Source: Gammaproteobacteria bacterium HGW-Gammaproteobacteria-1
GTDB lineage: Bacteria > Pseudomonadota > Gammaproteobacteria > Thiohalomonadales > Thiohalomonadaceae
Assembly: GCA_002840095.1 (NCBI GenBank)
Contig: PGZL01000003.1
Coordinates: forward strand, 124,001-188,000
Reading direction: 5' to 3'
DNA length: 64,000 nucleotides
Positions 8,765 through 57,435 of this stretch are shown piece after piece. A program made the translations under genes and the position numbers. The notes beneath the pieces were generated by a model, which was not told where the DNA came from, ran no database searches, and was given only the letters and a program-made list of their open reading frames with translations. Every line of letters starts with the position of its first letter. Positions within the stretch are counted from its first letter, which is position 1.

Positions 8765-9319
8765 ATGAGCGAAGAACAAACCAAACCCGATGTCGAAGCG
8801 GCCGTGAATGCGGCGGCCGGACAGGATGGGCCGGCCCCGGAAGTGAGCGAGCTGCATCTGCAGCTGGAGGACGCCCGCAGCAAGGCCGATGAGCACTGGA
8901 ACCAGGTGCTGCGCATGCAGGCGGAACTGGAGAACGGTCGCCGTCGCGCCGAGCGCGACGTGGAAAACGCCCACAAGTATGCGCTGGAGCGCATTGCCGC
9001 CGACCTGTTGCCGGTCAAGGACAGCCTGGAGCTGGCCCTGGCGGCCATCGGCGACGATGCGGCGCTGGATCAGCTGCGCGAAGGTACCGCGCTGACCCTG
9101 AAAATGCTGGGACAGACGATGGAGAAGTACGGCATCAGGGAGATCAATCCCGTGGGCCAGCCGTTCAATCCCGAGCTGCACCAGGCCATGGCCATGCAGG
9201 AGAGCGCCGAGCAGGCGCCCAACAGTGTGCTGGTGGTGATGCAGAAGGGCTACACCCTGAACGAGCGCCTGATCCGTCCGGCGCTGGTCGTGGTGGCCAA
9301 GGCACCCGCCGCGGGCTGA
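8765..9319 (+). CDS. grpE: Nucleotide exchange factor GrpE
   Basis: GrpE releases ADP from DnaK in the chaperone cycle. The 184-residue product has an acidic disordered N-terminus and a long coiled coil (about residues 25-95, [19 protein letters not shown] onward). The C-terminal beta-domain includes [15 protein letters not shown] and [25 protein letters not shown]. Two adjacent ATGs exist (8762 and 8765). GGAG at 8754-8757 is seven bases from the second, which I chose. Expression is expected from the sigma-32-like promoter at 8658-8685. Confidence 0.94.
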
Positions 9320-9323
9320 CGGG

Positions 9324-9352
9324 CTTGAATTCGACCGCAAAGACCCTATTTA
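9324..9352 (+). promoter_or_regulatory. Second sigma-32-like promoter, upstream of dnaK
   Basis: CTTGAA (9324-9329), 14 bases, CCCTATTTA (9344-9352) matches the sigma-32 -10 consensus at all defined positions but one. It sits in the 95-base grpE-dnaK gap and could boost dnaK over grpE. Consensus-based inference. Confidence 0.65.
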
Positions 9353-9414
9353 CCACCTAGATATTGAATCGGCCCGCCGGATGCCGGGCCAGCAGCGAAT
9401 CGGAGAGCAAAAAA

Positions 9415-11331
<1,917 letters not shown>

Positions 11332-11337
<6 letters not shown>

Positions 11338-11440
11338 CAAGTGACAAGTGACAAGTAACAAGCACAAGGGTCGGAGCACGCGCTTCGGCCCTTGTGTCTT
11401 TCTCGAAACTTGTATCTTGCAACCTGTAACTTGGAACTGG
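11332..11440. repeat. Heptad inverted array between dnaK and dnaJ
   Basis: The left arm (11332-11362) is AAGTGAC repeated three times, then AAGTAAC and AAG. The right arm (11407-11440) is five AACTTGN-type heptads in the opposite sense. Between them is a strong 15-bp hairpin (11363-11377 with 11382-11396). The left arm begins inside the dnaK coding end and supplies the stop codon; the right arm ends four bases before the dnaJ ATG. The same array type recurs at carA-carB and before the tetR gene at 57465. Confidence 0.92.
11363..11400 (+). terminator. Hairpin, possible partial terminator between dnaK and dnaJ
   Basis: CACAAGGGTCGGAGC (11363-11377) pairs with GCTTCGGCCCTTGTG (11382-11396) over all 15 positions, allowing G-U pairs, around an ACGC loop. 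TCTTTCTC follows, a weak T-rich tail. It could cut dnaJ expression relative to dnaK, or stabilise the dnaK message. Confidence 0.5.
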
Positions 11441-11444
11441 CTTT

Positions 11445-12584
11445 ATGTCTAAACGCGATTACTACGAAGTGCTGGGCGTGGCGAAGAACGCCACCGAGGC
11501 GGAGATCAAGAAGGCCTTCAAGCGCCTGGCGATGAAGCACCATCCCGATCGCAATCCGGACGACAAGGCGTCGGAGGAAAAATTCAAGGAGGCCAAGGAG
11601 GCCTACGAGATTCTCTCCGATGCGCAGAAGCGCGCCGCCTATGACCAGTTCGGTCACGCCGGCGTCGATCCCGGTGCCGGTGGCGGCGGCGGTTACGGCC
11701 CGGGCGGCGCCAGTTTCTCCGATATCTTCGGCGACGTTTTCGGCGACATCTTCGGCGGAGCCGGTGGCGCCCGGGGCGGCGCCCGCGCCTATCGCGGCAG
11801 CGACCTGCGCTACAACCTGGACCTGTCGCTGGAAGAGGCGGTGATGGGCACCACGGTAAAGATCCGCGTGCCCACCCTGGTGGAATGCGACGAGTGCGGC
11901 GGCAGCGGCGCCAAAAAGGGCACCAGCCCGCAGACCTGCCCCACCTGCCAGGGCCACGGCCAGGTGCGCATGCAACAGGGCTTCTTCTCCTTGCAGCAGG
12001 CCTGCCCGCGTTGTCACGGCAGCGGCAAGATCATCTCCGACCCCTGCGGCAAGTGCCATGGCCAGGGCCGTATCCAGGAACAGAAGACCCTGTCGGTGAA
12101 AGTGCCGGCCGGGGTAGACGAGGGCGATCGTATCCGCCTGGGCGGGGAGGGCGAGGCCGGCCTGCACGGCGGACCGGCGGGCGACCTCTACGTGCAGATA
12201 CACGTGCGTGAGCACCCCATCTTCACCCGCGACGAGAACAACCTCGCCTGCGAGGTGCCCATCAGTTTCGTCACTGCCGCCCTCGGCGGCGAGCTGGATG
12301 TCCCCACTCTGGGCGGCCGGGTCAAGCTGAAGATCCCGGCGGAGACCCAGAGCGGAAAGCTGTTCCGCTTGCGCGGCAAGGGCGTGAAGTCGGTGCGCGG
12401 CGGCGAGGTGGGCGATCTCATCTGCCGGGTGGTGGTGGAAACGCCGGTCAATCTCAGCGGCCGGCAGAAGGAGCTGTTGCAGGAATTCGAGGCCAGCCTG
12501 AACGGTACATCCACCAAGCACAGCCCCAAGGCCACCTCCTGGCTGGACGGCGTGAAGAAATTCTTCGAGGATATGAAACCGTAA
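11445..12584 (+). CDS. dnaJ: Chaperone DnaJ (Hsp40)
   Basis: DnaJ delivers substrates to DnaK and stimulates its ATPase. The 379-residue product has the J domain with HPD at residues 33-35 and a Gly/Phe-rich linker ([22 protein letters not shown]). It has all four zinc-binding repeats ([32 protein letters not shown]), then the C-terminal beta-domains, and is full length. The region upstream of the ATG is the heptad repeat array, leaving only a weak TTGGA ribosome site. It is cotranscribed with grpE-dnaK unless the intervening hairpin stops read-through. Confidence 0.97.
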
Positions 12585-53588: not shown

Positions 53589-54167
53589 ATGTCTCTGACA
53601 CCGTCCACCATGCAGGAGTTGGGAACCCCGGCCCCGGATTTCTCGCTGCCCGAGCCGGCCACCGGCGCCACGGTCACCCGCCGGCAGTTTGTCGGCAAGC
53701 CGCTGCTGATCGTGTTTACCTGTAATCATTGTCCTTACGTGAAACACATCGCCGATGCCTTTGCCGAATTTGCCCGCGAGTATCAGGAACACGGCCTGGC
53801 CGTGGTGGCCATCAGCGCCAATGATCCTGCCCATCGCGCCGAGGACGGTCCTCAATTCATGGCGCGGGAAGCGACGGCGCGCGGCAACCCGTTTCCCTAC
53901 CTGTACGATGAGAGCCAGGCGGTGGCCAAGGCCTATCGTGCCGCCTGCACGCCGGATTTTTTCCTGTACGACGCCGATCACCGCCTGGTTTATCGCGGCC
54001 AGTTCGATGACAGCCGGCCCGGCAACACCCTGCCGATCACGGGCGCCGATTTGCGTGATGCGGTCAAGGCGGTTCTGGCCGGAATGCCGGTTCCCGACGA
54101 ACAGCGGCCCAGTATCGGCTGCAACATCAAGTGGAAGCCCGGCAACGAGCCGGACTACTTCGGCTGA
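53589..54167 (+). CDS. Thioredoxin-fold (AhpC/TSA-like) protein
   Basis: The 192-residue protein has a peroxiredoxin/TlpA-like thioredoxin fold: GTPAPDFSLPEPATG at the start, then the redox motif Cys45-Asn-His-Cys48 in FTCNHCPYVKH. The CTPDFFLYDADHRLVYRGQFDDSRPG segment carries the cis-Pro region. No signal peptide is visible, so it is probably cytoplasmic. The ATG at 53589 has a strong AAGGAGG. This group is usually annotated as thioredoxin family protein; its partner is unknown. It follows mtnC by 54 bases and may be cotranscribed. Confidence 0.85.
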   Translation: MSLTPSTMQELGTPAPDFSLPEPATGATVTRRQFVGKPLLIVFTCNHCPYVKHIADAFAEFAREYQEHGLAVVAISANDPAHRAEDGPQFMAREATARGNPFPYLYDESQAVAKAYRAACTPDFFLYDADHRLVYRGQFDDSRPGNTLPITGADLRDAVKAVLAGMPVPDEQRPSIGCNIKWKPGNEPDYFG

Positions 54168-54405: not shown

Positions 54406-57288
54406 ATGCGTTTGCAGACCAAGTTGCTCGCGGTATTCGGCGTGGTATTTCTCAGCCTCTATCTGGCGGTTGAGTATCACCAGTACCGGGAAAATCGTGC
54501 CGCCATCGTCGAGCAACTGCTCGAGGAGGCCGGGGTTATCGCCGGCACCCTGCAGGCGGTACGGCGGGTCTATCATCACCAGTTCATCATCAGCGGGCTG
54601 CCGGTCAACAAAGATACCGTCGGCTTTCTTCCCGCTCACGCCATGTCGCGAATTTCAGCGGAATTCCTCAATTTTGTCCGTACCGGCCTGCAGTTCAACA
54701 ACGTTTCCGATCGGGCGCGCAATCCGGCGAACGAAGCGGATGCCGTGGAACGGGAGGCCATTGCGTATTTCCGCGCGGAGCCTGCCGCAACGCAGCGCAT
54801 GGTGCCGTTCACGAACGCCGAAGGCCGGAATTTCTATCTGTACGCCAAGCCGCTGCGTATCGAACAGTATTGTCTGCAATGCCACGGCAGGCGGCAGGAC
54901 GCACCATCCAGCATCCAGGATATGTACGATGCCGCGTTCGACTACAAGCTGGGCGAGGTACGCGGCATCCTGAGCATCAAGCTGCCGTCCGACGAGCTGG
55001 AACGGCGCGTGATTGCGCGTCAGTCGCGGGAAATGGGTACCCGGCTGGCGGTGTTCGCCGCGGCGTTTGTGCTGTTGTTTCTGTTGCTCAAGCATGTTGT
55101 GGTGCGGCGGCTGGGCCTGCTCAAGGCGCAGATGGTCAACCTGCGCGGCGGGGACTACGGCGCCCGTGTCATGCTGGACGGCAAGGACGAACTGACGGAG
55201 CTGGCCCACTCCTTCAATACCATGGCAGACGCCATAGCCGACAGCCGCCGGCAGATCGAGCGGGAGCGGGTGTTCTTGCAGACAGTCATCGACGGCGCCC
55301 TCGATCCCATCATGGTGATCGGGGCCGATTATCATGTGCTGATGATGAACCGGGCGGCGCGGCGTTACCTGGATCAGGAGGACACCTTGCCGTTGTTGTG
55401 TCACCAGGTGTCCCACCGCCAGGCGCAGCCCTGCAACGACGACGGCCATCCCTGTCCCCTGGAGGAAGTCCGGCACACCCTCCGCCCGGTGACCATGGTG
55501 CATGAGCACGTGCTGGCGGACGGACGCCGCCGCCTGTTCGAGCTGGAGGCCACTCCGTTGCTGGGGCAGGACGGGGCATTCAAGGGCATCATCGAAACAT
55601 CGCGCGACATTACCGACCGGGTGGGCGCCGAGGAGCGCCTGCGCAAGCTGTCGCAGGCGGTGGAACAGAGCCCGGTATCGGTAATCATCACCGACGTGAG
55701 CGGCGCCATCGAATACGTCAATCCGAAGTTCGAGGAGGTGACCGGTTACGGCCTCGACGAGGTACGCGGTGCCAATCCCCGCGTGCTCAAGAGCGGCCAT
55801 ACCGCGGAAGGCGAGTACCGCCGGCTCTGGGAGACCATACTGCGCGGCGATATCTGGCGCGGCGAATTTCTCAACCGGCGCAAGAACGGCGAACTGTTCT
55901 GGGAATATGCCTCCATTTCCGCCATTCGAAATGCGCAGGGTGAAATCGATCATTTCCTGGCGGTCAAGGAAGACATCACCGTGCGCAAGGGGTATGAAGA
56001 GCGATTGCTGCATCAGGAAAGCTACGACGCCCTGACCGACCTGCCCAACCGTATGCTGGCCTCGGACCGCCTGATCCAGGCCATGATGCGCGCGCGGCGT
56101 GAAGGCCGCAGCGTCGGCGTGGTATCGCTGGATCTCGACAACTTCAAGAACATCAACGACAGCCTGGGGCATGGCAGCGGCGATCAGCTGCTGCTGCAGC
56201 TGGCGCACCGTCTCGTCGCCGCCATGCGCGACGGTGATACCGTGGCCCGCCTCGGCGGCGACGAGTTCCTGATCATTCTGGCCGATCTGGCCACGCCGGA
56301 CGATACCGAACGCGTGCTCGACAAGGTGCGGGCGGTTTTCGAGCGGCCATTCCGGGTCGAAGGCAAGGATATCTACATGACGCCCAGCATCGGTGTGACC
56401 GTGGCGCCGGAGGACAGTGAGGACGTGCACATCCTGCTGCGCAATGCCGATGCCGCCATGCACCGCGCCAAGGAGTTGGGCCGTGACCGGACCCAGTTCT
56501 TTACCACGGAGATGAACGAGCGTGCCTTGAAACGCCTGGAGCTGGAGTCGCAGTTGCGCCATGCCCAGGCGCGGGGCGAGTTGTCCTTGCACTACCAGCC
56601 GCAGGTGGCCGGTGACGACGGGCGGGTGATCGGTGCCGAGGCCCTGCTGCGCTGGAACAGTCCCGTGCTCGGCGCCATCAGCCCCGTGCGCTTCATTCCG
56701 CTGGCCGAGGAGACCGGCCTGATCGTGCCCATCGGGCGCTGGGTGTTGGAAACCGCCTGCCGCGAGGCCGCCGGCTGGCCGCAGCCGTTGCAGGTCAGCG
56801 TGAATGTGTCGTCGCGCCAGTTCCGCGACGGCAATCTGGTGGAGACGGTGGCGCAGGTGCTGGCAGCGACCGGCCTGGAGCCGTCACGCCTGGAGCTGGA
56901 AGTCACCGAAAGCCTGTTGATGGAGGACGTCAGCGGAACCGCCATCGTGCTGGAGCGATTGCAATTGCTCGGGGTGCGTATCGCACTGGACGATTTCGGC
57001 ACCGGTTATTCATCACTGAGCTATCTCAAGCGCTTTCCCTTCGGCGTACTCAAGATCGACCGCAGTTTCGTCAACGACATCATCGACAACCCCGATGATG
57101 GCGCCTTGTGCGAGGCCATCATCCAGATGGCGCACGTGCTCAAGCTGCGGGTCGTCGCCGAGGGTGTGGAAACCGCGGAGCAGCTGGAATACCTGGTCGC
57201 GCGCGGTGTCGACCTGGTGCAGGGGTTTTACTACAGCCGGCCACTGCCGGCCGCGGAGTTCCTGCTCTATCTGGCGGGGTACAAGTGA
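54406..57288 (+). CDS. Heme-c sensor diguanylate cyclase/phosphodiesterase (DUF3365-HAMP-PAS-PAS-GGDEF-EAL)
   Basis: The 960-residue inner-membrane protein probably makes and/or degrades c-di-GMP in response to a periplasmic redox or ligand signal. A membrane helix (about 6-23) is followed by a periplasmic DUF3365/Tll0287-like domain with a heme-c site Cys156-x-x-Cys159-His160. A second helix (about 212-229) leads to HAMP (about 230-285). PAS1 (about 288-405) has a Cys/His cluster (Cys332, His333, Cys343, His348, Cys350), and PAS2 spans about 415-530. GGDEF is intact at 617-621, with an RxxD inhibitory site at 608-611. EAL is at 745-747 with DDFGTG and VVAEGVET kept. Both catalytic domains therefore look active. 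The stop codon is part of an AAGTGAC repeat array. The ligand and net activity are unknown. Confidence 0.9.
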   Translation: MRLQTKLLAVFGVVFLSLYLAVEYHQYRENRAAIVEQLLEEAGVIAGTLQAVRRVYHHQFIISGLPVNKDTVGFLPAHAMSRISAEFLNFVRTGLQFNNVSDRARNPANEADAVEREAIAYFRAEPAATQRMVPFTNAEGRNFYLYAKPLRIEQYCLQCHGRRQDAPSSIQDMYDAAFDYKLGEVRGILSIKLPSDELERRVIARQSREMGTRLAVFAAAFVLLFLLLKHVVVRRLGLLKAQMVNLRGGDYGARVMLDGKDELTELAHSFNTMADAIADSRRQIERERVFLQTVIDGALDPIMVIGADYHVLMMNRAARRYLDQEDTLPLLCHQVSHRQAQPCNDDGHPCPLEEVRHTLRPVTMVHEHVLADGRRRLFELEATPLLGQDGAFKGIIETSRDITDRVGAEERLRKLSQAVEQSPVSVIITDVSGAIEYVNPKFEEVTGYGLDEVRGANPRVLKSGHTAEGEYRRLWETILRGDIWRGEFLNRRKNGELFWEYASISAIRNAQGEIDHFLAVKEDITVRKGYEERLLHQESYDALTDLPNRMLASDRLIQAMMRARREGRSVGVVSLDLDNFKNINDSLGHGSGDQLLLQLAHRLVAAMRDGDTVARLGGDEFLIILADLATPDDTERVLDKVRAVFERPFRVEGKDIYMTPSIGVTVAPEDSEDVHILLRNADAAMHRAKELGRDRTQFFTTEMNERALKRLELESQLRHAQARGELSLHYQPQVAGDDGRVIGAEALLRWNSPVLGAISPVRFIPLAEETGLIVPIGRWVLETACREAAGWPQPLQVSVNVSSRQFRDGNLVETVAQVLAATGLEPSRLELEVTESLLMEDVSGTAIVLERLQLLGVRIALDDFGTGYSSLSYLKRFPFGVLKIDRSFVNDIIDNPDDGALCEAIIQMAHVLKLRVVAEGVETAEQLEYLVARGVDLVQGFYYSRPLPAAEFLLYLAGYK

Positions 57289-57409
57289 CAAGTGGCAAGT
57301 GACAAGTGACAAGTGACAAGTGACAAGTGACAAGAAATTGATATTTGTCTTCCCACTTGTAACTTGCAACTTGGAACTTGCAACTTGGAACTTGCAACTT
57401 GGAACTTGC
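57283..57409. repeat. Heptad inverted array between the c-di-GMP gene and tetR
   Basis: This is the longest copy. The left arm (57283-57334) has seven heptads, AAGTGAC or AAGTGGC, and supplies the upstream stop codon. The right arm (57354-57409) has eight AACTTGN-type heptads, in which the last base alternates C/G as a repeated 14-mer. About 19 bases, AT-rich, lie between. Folded, it would be a long imperfect hairpin. Confidence 0.93.
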
Positions 57410-57435
57410 AACTGCCTCTCTCCCGGCGTAGCCTT

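Follow-up and report, generated by a model that had tools for sequence, protein, structure and literature searches.

A membrane-bound cyclic di-GMP enzyme that may pair a periplasmic c-type heme with a cytoplasmic FisR-type sulfane-sulfur switch

Cyclic di-GMP (c-di-GMP) is a biofilm signal, and here we describe a candidate protein in which two sensors may meet the domains for its synthesis and breakdown. It is encoded in a 64,000-nucleotide stretch of DNA (the window; contig PGZL01000003.1, positions 124,001 to 188,000) from Gammaproteobacteria bacterium HGW-Gammaproteobacteria-1 (the host). The protein has 960 residues, and a heme-c Cache domain and a cysteine-rich PAS domain (PAS1) precede a second PAS domain (PAS2) and a GGDEF-EAL pair. 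We propose, with a probability of roughly 0.55, that it is a membrane-bound c-di-GMP enzyme with two inputs: a heme outside that responds to nitric oxide (NO) or redox state, and a thiol switch inside that responds to sulfane sulfur. An earlier, sequence-only reading had described the gene and its domains, and both were recovered where it had placed them. Its interpretation is partly supported, and the link to sulfane sulfur was absent from it.

Results

The open reading frame (ORF) starts with the ATG at 54406 on the forward strand and runs without an internal stop, and both orthologues from congeners begin at the same Met when aligned with it (all coordinates are in Table 1). The domain order is transmembrane (TM) helix, Tll0287-like c-heme Cache, TM helix, HAMP, PAS1, PAS2, GGDEF, and EAL, with each Pfam domain over its own cut-off. 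The protein has seven cysteines: C156 and C159 at the heme motif, C332, C343, and C350 in PAS1, and C785 and C902 in EAL.

We found that the N-terminal sensor is a member of the Tll0287-like family, now named sCache_heme, in support of the periplasmic heme-c sensor of the sequence-only reading. It matches PF11845 at 116 bits against a curated cut-off of 24.1, and its C156/C159/H160 motif aligns with CLACH of Tll0287. Since two hydrophobic TM stretches flank the Cache, the motif is predicted to be periplasmic. The solved relative is Tll0287 (5B82), which was found at 6.3e-6 by sequence and at 2.4e-9 with a profile; a search of the Protein Data Bank (PDB) with the heme-domain profile returned Tll0287 and one chance-like cytochrome. 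C156, C159, and H160 are invariant in an eight-row alignment, and His58, His78, and Met80, which are candidate distal heme ligands, are kept in three members of the genus. The family is described as a c-heme Cache family, with CXXCH in 99% and 99.4% of two datasets (PMC12889525; statements on papers cited here refer to the available part of each text). To judge from these relatives, the Cache most likely carries a covalent c-type heme that binds NO or reports redox state.

For signaling-linked heme Caches, the best published support is for NO and not for the generic redox role that the sequence-only reading gave the heme. NO release is slow (koff ~6e-4 per s) in a HAMP-linked member that has no axial Cys, and this protein does not form a stable complex with oxygen; in a stand-alone P. 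putida member, which does have the axial Cys, NO release is fast and stays so in the C59A form (PMC12889525). As in the HAMP-linked member, the only periplasmic cysteines of our protein are the heme pair. In GSU0582 and GSU0935 of Geobacter the heme ligand switches with redox state (-156 and -251 mV), and the ligands of GSU0935 are His144 with Met60 or water (PMC8396549). Both of these proteins also bind NO (PMC8396549), and therefore the heme evidence does not cleanly separate an NO reading from a redox reading.

The host could plausibly mature heme c and produce NO, because its genome has CcmF (8.6e-132) and three cytochrome d1-type genes. The latter all lie within 10 kb (C57:23971-33595 of the host genome), which suggests a nirS-type denitrification locus and a host that makes NO. 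Among the four Tll0287-like proteins of the host, only the one studied here also carries the cysteine-rich PAS described next.

PAS1 belongs to a discrete family. We built a profile from 27 PAS1 sequences, one of them from the window, and scored 102 candidates in the host genome with it. Three places matched (2.1e-47, 4.8e-41, and 2.5e-36) and no fourth did so down to 1e-6; PAS2 scored 0.3 bits. With so few matching places and so low a score for the neighboring PAS domain, the Cys cluster goes beyond chance. Across the loci compared, 139 distinct stretches matched the profile, a few places having been entered twice with different extents: 115 reached at least 76 bits, 13 fell at 50-76, and 11 fell below 50, with no stretch between 43 and 22 bits.

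Conservation among the 115 domains singles out six residues. Each of C332, C343, and C350 is present in 115/115, H337 in 111/115, H366 in 106/115, and H368 in 112/115, and 105 domains have all six. The cluster named from sequence alone was Cys332, His333, Cys343, His348, and Cys350; all five residues are there, and the family alignment upholds the three cysteines and not the two histidines, which are variable (H333 in 25/115, H348 in 22/115), while bringing in three histidines that had not been listed. We therefore rejected a metal site made from the listed residues. In the 88 domains that are independent of the profile-building set, the window, and its orthologues, the three cysteines are found in 88, H337 in 87, and all six residues in 82. 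The two orthologues keep all six at 77-81% PAS identity, while the surrounding loop varies. Loss of H337 tracks loss of H366 (105/10/2/11 over 128 domains, Fisher p 1e-8; 105/6/1/3 within the 115 alone, p 0.0013; relatedness ignored in both). Among the 13 domains at 50-76 bits, 10 have the three cysteines and two have the three cysteines with H337. These 13 (L130-L142, by our locus labels; 50-72 bits) make up a second, divergent Cys-PAS group, in which several members have extra nearby cysteines.

In a sample of 369 genomes from the class, 46 had the Cys-rich PAS, and all 57 of their matches carried the three cysteines. In a sample of 299 genomes from the phylum, 35 had matches better than 1e-20, and five more had weaker, divergent-type matches only. 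The three cysteines occur in none of the five alignments viewed out of 39 PDB hits to PAS1, and the viral contigs scanned with the correctly spaced Cys pattern gave no match. Plasmid searches returned few relatives (4 and 5 records), and a Skermanella plasmid record was left unused (38 bits in all, 13.5 for its best domain). A single-sequence fold of PAS1 was too poor for use (pLDDT 47).

What might these cysteines sense? Many PAS1 relatives are regulators of ~450 residues with sigma-54 activator motifs, and the one scanned with Pfam (L110) reads PAS_4 - Sigma54_activat - HTH_8. A further relative, L170 on the megaplasmid of Cupriavidus metallidurans CH34, has 441 residues from the start MDRPTT, scores 99 bits against the Cys-PAS profile, and has cysteines at 53, 64, 71, and 191. 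The steps of 11 and 7 residues in C332-C343-C350 are those of its 53-64-71. The sensory domain of C. pinatubonensis FisR has the same two steps if its third conserved cysteine is Cys71, as we take it to be. In that protein, sulfane sulfur gives a Cys53-Cys64 tetrasulfide (PMC9495516), and three conserved cysteines sense reactive sulfur by joining to one another as disulfides and tetrasulfides (PMC9774590). FisR activation works through raised ATPase activity (PMC12170894).

The 960-residue protein has a sensory domain with three cysteines at the fixed spacing of FisR. It has no AAA+ sigma-54 interaction domain and no Fis-type helix-turn-helix; its output is GGDEF-EAL. Whereas FisR is a sigma-54 transcription activator, the same kind of domain here sits in a membrane c-di-GMP enzyme. 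At the level of sequence, the protein shares the FisR sensory domain and is not itself a FisR. By homology, the likeliest role for PAS1 is that of a FisR-type thiol switch for reactive sulfur, and not primarily that of a metal site. The suggestion of a second thiol-rich site across the membrane from the heme is borne out by the PAS1 cluster, and of the two functions offered for it, a disulfide switch would fit the relation to FisR. Metal binding is not supported as the leading option, although conserved His337, His366, and His368 leave room for it.

The genes beside sister regulators point in the same direction. For this comparison we chose 44 loci that had enough flanking contig (L110 and L111 from the host, L170 and L171 from plasmids, and 40 others). 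All 44 encode a protein with a Cys3His PAS, and 43 have a sigma-54 motif by pattern. Neighbors include sulfide:quinone reductase (SQR) at 15 loci, rhodanese at 8, cytochrome bd (cyd) at 6, and a PhsA-like molybdoenzyme at 4; 31 loci have at least one of these in the stretch analyzed and 13 have none. Of the 33 pairings, 29 lie at 29-534 bp and three at 1.0-1.3 kb, and the last, the rhodanese of L186, is 4.2 kb away. These identities rest on one cluster member each for SQR (6.6e-163 to solved sulfide-quinone reductases), rhodanese (Pfam), and PhsA (best NCBIfam match, below cut-off), and on L171 (annotation, NCBIfam) and L111 (Pfam) for cyd. L170, one of the 13, has an ORF whose best NCBIfam match, under cut-off, is SQR. 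SQR matched in 32 of 38 genomes searched. When the strong copies (E under 1e-90) were compared by hand with the listed PAS matches, 16 of the 33 were no more than 1.5 kb from one. By a rough estimate, well under 1% of random 10 kb regions would be expected to hold such an SQR.

In the host, one Cys3-PAS regulator stands beside SQR and another is divergent from cydAB (L111:7463-8800 and 9189-12046). Pseudoalteromonas xiamenensis (L171) likewise has a Cys3-PAS sigma-54 regulator divergent from cydAB, and at four other loci such a regulator lies beside cyd genes on the opposite strand. Sulfide-responsive control of cytochrome bd by these regulators is possible. In A. baumannii, cydAB transcription increases in response to sulfide (PMC7315123).

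The pairing of a heme-c domain with a Cys3 PAS recurs in proteins that differ from ours in having kinase output. In two hybrid kinases (L118 and L119) CxxCH lies 142 residues ahead of the Cys PAS, and L118, the one of the two scanned, is Tll0287-like by Pfam (6.4e-21). Nine kinases of 624-649 residues from nine genomes (L214-L222) all have CxxCH followed by a Cys PAS, as does L173. Pfam did not call Tll0287-like in four scanned kinases of the L214-L222 type or in L173; an alignment of the periplasmic parts of the kinases can be matched to one of our protein's type along 62 columns at and around the CxxCH motif (hhalign E 4.3e-9). Among the nine, His337 is replaced by Tyr in two (L056 and L126), and the first spacer is one residue shorter in L102. 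Near each of the nine is a member of one response-regulator cluster, of which the single member scanned is a sigma-54-type response regulator, and four also have a nearby member of another cluster, from which the one protein scanned is DmsA-like with a score below cut-off. A tenth heme-c/Cys3-PAS kinase, from Rhodobacter xanthinilyticus, also has a DmsA-like gene nearby.

In a tree of the 115 PAS domains, 34 rows (of sensor type where seen) split from the 81 others with support 100/95. The heme label, placed on 14 rows (12 in the first run), needs three changes on this tree, but the data do not reject a tree with all of these rows in one clade (p-AU 0.393). For this reason we do not claim independent origins of the pairing.

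The output half of the protein is as complete as the sequence-only reading had it: PAS2 is called by Pfam, the inhibitory site (I-site) RDGD lies five residues before the GGDEF motif, and the EAL motifs are all present (EALLRW, NVSSRQF, EVTES, DDFGTGYSS, KIDRSF, AEGVET, and QGF). The EAL motifs hold the catalytic residues of that domain. At the level of motifs, then, the protein has what bifunctional GGDEF-EAL enzymes have. The nearest solved chain is 4rnh, 'Motility regulator'. Because the closest named families of the PAS2-GGDEF-EAL part include the phosphodiesterase DibA, we expect phosphodiesterase output to prevail, though the indication is weak. The whole protein has 94 matches in the host genome at E <= 0.001; with many GGDEF/EAL enzymes in 4.2 Mb, the host has a dense c-di-GMP network.

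Discussion

How might two inputs set one output? The sequence analysis itself establishes the domain order, the motifs and their conservation, the family relations, and the linkage of the sister regulators to sulfur genes. In the scheme that we infer for heme loading, ligand, thiol chemistry, and direction of output, the periplasmic c-heme would bind NO or report redox state, as its family suggests, and pass the signal through TM helix 2 and HAMP. Inside the cell, polysulfide or persulfide would convert Cys332, Cys343, and Cys350 to disulfide or tetrasulfide links, by homology with Cys53, Cys64, and Cys71 of FisR. Both inputs would change how the HAMP-PAS-PAS stack packs and would thereby shift the balance between GGDEF and EAL, with PAS2 relaying the change in PAS1 to the GGDEF-EAL pair.

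Several points weigh against this proposal. The conservation of H337, H366, and H368 almost equals that of the cysteines; a pure thiol switch would not usually show this, and a metal site would. The ligand of PAS1 could have diverged, because the sensor-protein clade to which it belongs is separate from the sigma-54 regulators. The cysteine-to-sulfur link is not universal, since A. baumannii depends on its FisR to respond to sulfide although this FisR is without the regulatory cysteines (PMC7315123). We call the C. metallidurans protein FisR from numbering and neighborhood and not from a published test, and its SQR-like neighbor, under the family cut-off, clusters apart from other SQRs. The conservation counts overstate independence because loci were chosen by similarity to PAS1 and some places are doubled, and the 76-bit cut was set after the scores were known. 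On the heme side, a missing axial Cys does not alone make an NO sensor, given that C59A is still fast. The best NCBIfam match of the protein, DibA, reaches 577 bits, below its cut-off of 980. Finally, we recognized no sulfur-oxidation gene among the neighbors of the c-di-GMP gene.

The conserved histidines lead to the first of two alternatives that we regard as unlikely and rank alike: PAS1, with Cys3His and His366/His368 nearby, would bind Zn, Fe, or Fe-S and serve as a structural site or a metal or redox sensor. The co-retention of the three cysteines with the three histidines and the joint loss of H337 and H366 both favor it, and zinc in a cytoplasmic PAS domain is known for WalK (PMC6624279). 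However, the cysteine spacing is that of FisR, where polysulfide links between thiols are reported, and regulators with this PAS adjoin sulfur genes. Moreover, the cysteines persist in most of the divergent domains, where H337 seldom accompanies them. Metal and sulfur readings may both hold, because PerR has a structural zinc site that is persulfide-modified (PMC9952342).

The second asks whether the protein reads electron-acceptor supply and not NO and sulfur, with a Cache that is a redox sensor like GSU0582/GSU0935 and a PAS1 that is a general thiol redox switch. The ligand switching of those two proteins (PMC8396549) is a precedent for such a Cache, and His78 and Met80, kept within the genus, could supply the distal ligand. 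Yet the sole HAMP-linked sCache_heme tested in the available part of PMC12889525 has the kinetics of an NO sensor, and a general thiol switch accounts poorly for so specific a Cys pattern or for the linkage of sister regulators to sulfur and cytochrome bd genes. A single working input, in which the heme domain senses and PAS1 has been inherited as a mere linker, is still less probable. It would suit the missing sulfur-oxidation neighbors and the distribution of the gene, which three of five genomes from the genus carry (of the two others, one is 84% complete), but not the retention of six key residues in both orthologues.

If the two-input proposal is extended to the kinases, these proteins would form a family in which each member detects coincidence by itself: a c-heme in the periplasm, for NO or redox, and a Cys3His3 switch in the cytoplasm, for sulfane sulfur, would together set one of three outputs (GGDEF-EAL, histidine kinase, or hybrid histidine kinase). 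We offer this joint reading tentatively and consider it rather doubtful. Under it, our protein would be the first receptor known to couple sulfane sulfur directly to c-di-GMP, and the site could possibly include a metal held by the Cys/His set and displaced by polysulfide.

Which parts of this are new? The heme of E. coli DosP (PdeO) lies in a cytoplasmic PAS domain, unlike the periplasmic c-heme of our protein, and we know of no Cys3 PAS in DosP. DosP resembles our protein as a heme-based sensor with EAL phosphodiesterase output (PMC8846402), and it is reported to be activated by H2S/sulfide at its heme (PMC9918477). A sulfide input to c-di-GMP is therefore not new as such. SqrR of Rhodobacter capsulatus also ties persulfide sensing to the c-di-GMP level (PMC9143464), but it is a transcription factor and not a direct fusion. 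Light-driven c-di-GMP controls zero-valent sulfur production, which is the reverse direction (PMC12172448). The P. azotoformans sCache_heme protein and GSU0582/GSU0935 have, as our protein does, a periplasmic CXXCH Cache between two TM helices followed by HAMP, and GGDEF/EAL fusions of sCache_heme are mentioned (PMC12889525). Unlike in our protein, no Cys3 PAS is described for these signaling proteins in the available part of PMC12889525, and neither FisR nor sulfide occurs in its main text. In the available text of a review of c-di-GMP sensing (PMC8846402), 'sulfur' occurs 0 times, and the single mention of 'sulfide' belongs to a cited work on E. coli DosP. In the literature searched, outside which most subscription papers lie, we found neither a direct sulfane-sulfur receptor for c-di-GMP nor a fusion of heme-c with a FisR-type domain. 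The parts are thus known, and the combination was not found there.

If the proposal is right, reactive sulfur has a direct route to c-di-GMP in addition to the route by way of a transcription factor that SqrR exemplifies, and the protein that provides it also reads NO across the membrane. For sulfide-oxidizing denitrifiers, it would be a plausible control point between attachment and dispersal. The Cys-rich PAS family also gains a likely class of ligand.

Gene neighborhood and feature coordinates

A redoxin gene lies directly upstream (Table 1), and the order redoxin, c-di-GMP gene, TetR is kept in both congeners that have the orthologue. mtnBDC had no match in one of the two congener stretches. 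It is possible that the redoxin is a functional partner that would reduce the PAS1 switch.

Table 1. Features of the c-di-GMP gene and its upstream neighbor, in window positions
Feature	Position	Strand	Basis or remark
Whole coding sequence, sCache_heme-HAMP-PAS1-PAS2-GGDEF-EAL	54406..57288	+	Orthologues ~82-83% identical in two congeners
TM helix 1, residues ~3-25	54412..54480	+	Hydropathy (prediction)
Periplasmic c-heme Cache (PF11845 Tll0287-like, sCache_heme), residues 34-194	54505..54987	+	Pfam E 2.5e-33
Heme-attachment motif CLQCH, residues 156-160 (C156/C159/H160)	54871..54885	+	Motif read from sequence
TM helix 2, residues ~209-239	55030..55122	+	Hydropathy (prediction)
HAMP linker, residues 229-277	55090..55236	+	Pfam E 2e-9
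PAS1, FisR-type Cys3 PAS, residues 300-406	55303..55623	+	Pfam PAS_4, Cys-PAS profile
C332-x4-H337-x5-C343-x6-C350-P351, proposed sulfane-sulfur switch	55399..55458	+	Conservation among related domains
HxH, His366 and His368	55501..55509	+	Conservation among related domains
PAS2, ordinary S-box PAS, residues 415-524	55648..55977	+	Pfam
GGDEF domain, residues 539-695	56020..56490	+	Pfam E 5.9e-45
I-site RDGD, residues 608-611	56227-56238	+	Motif
GGDEF motif, residues 617-621	56254-56268	+	Motif
EAL domain, residues 716-946	56551..57243	+	Pfam E 2.1e-74
AhpC/TSA-type redoxin, 192 residues, directly upstream	53589..54167	+	Pfam

Directly 3' of the gene are two short tandem arrays (57281-57413), ACAAGTG repeated 7.7 times and then ACTTGGAACTTGCA repeated 4.2 times; the first overlaps the stop codon of the 960-residue ORF.

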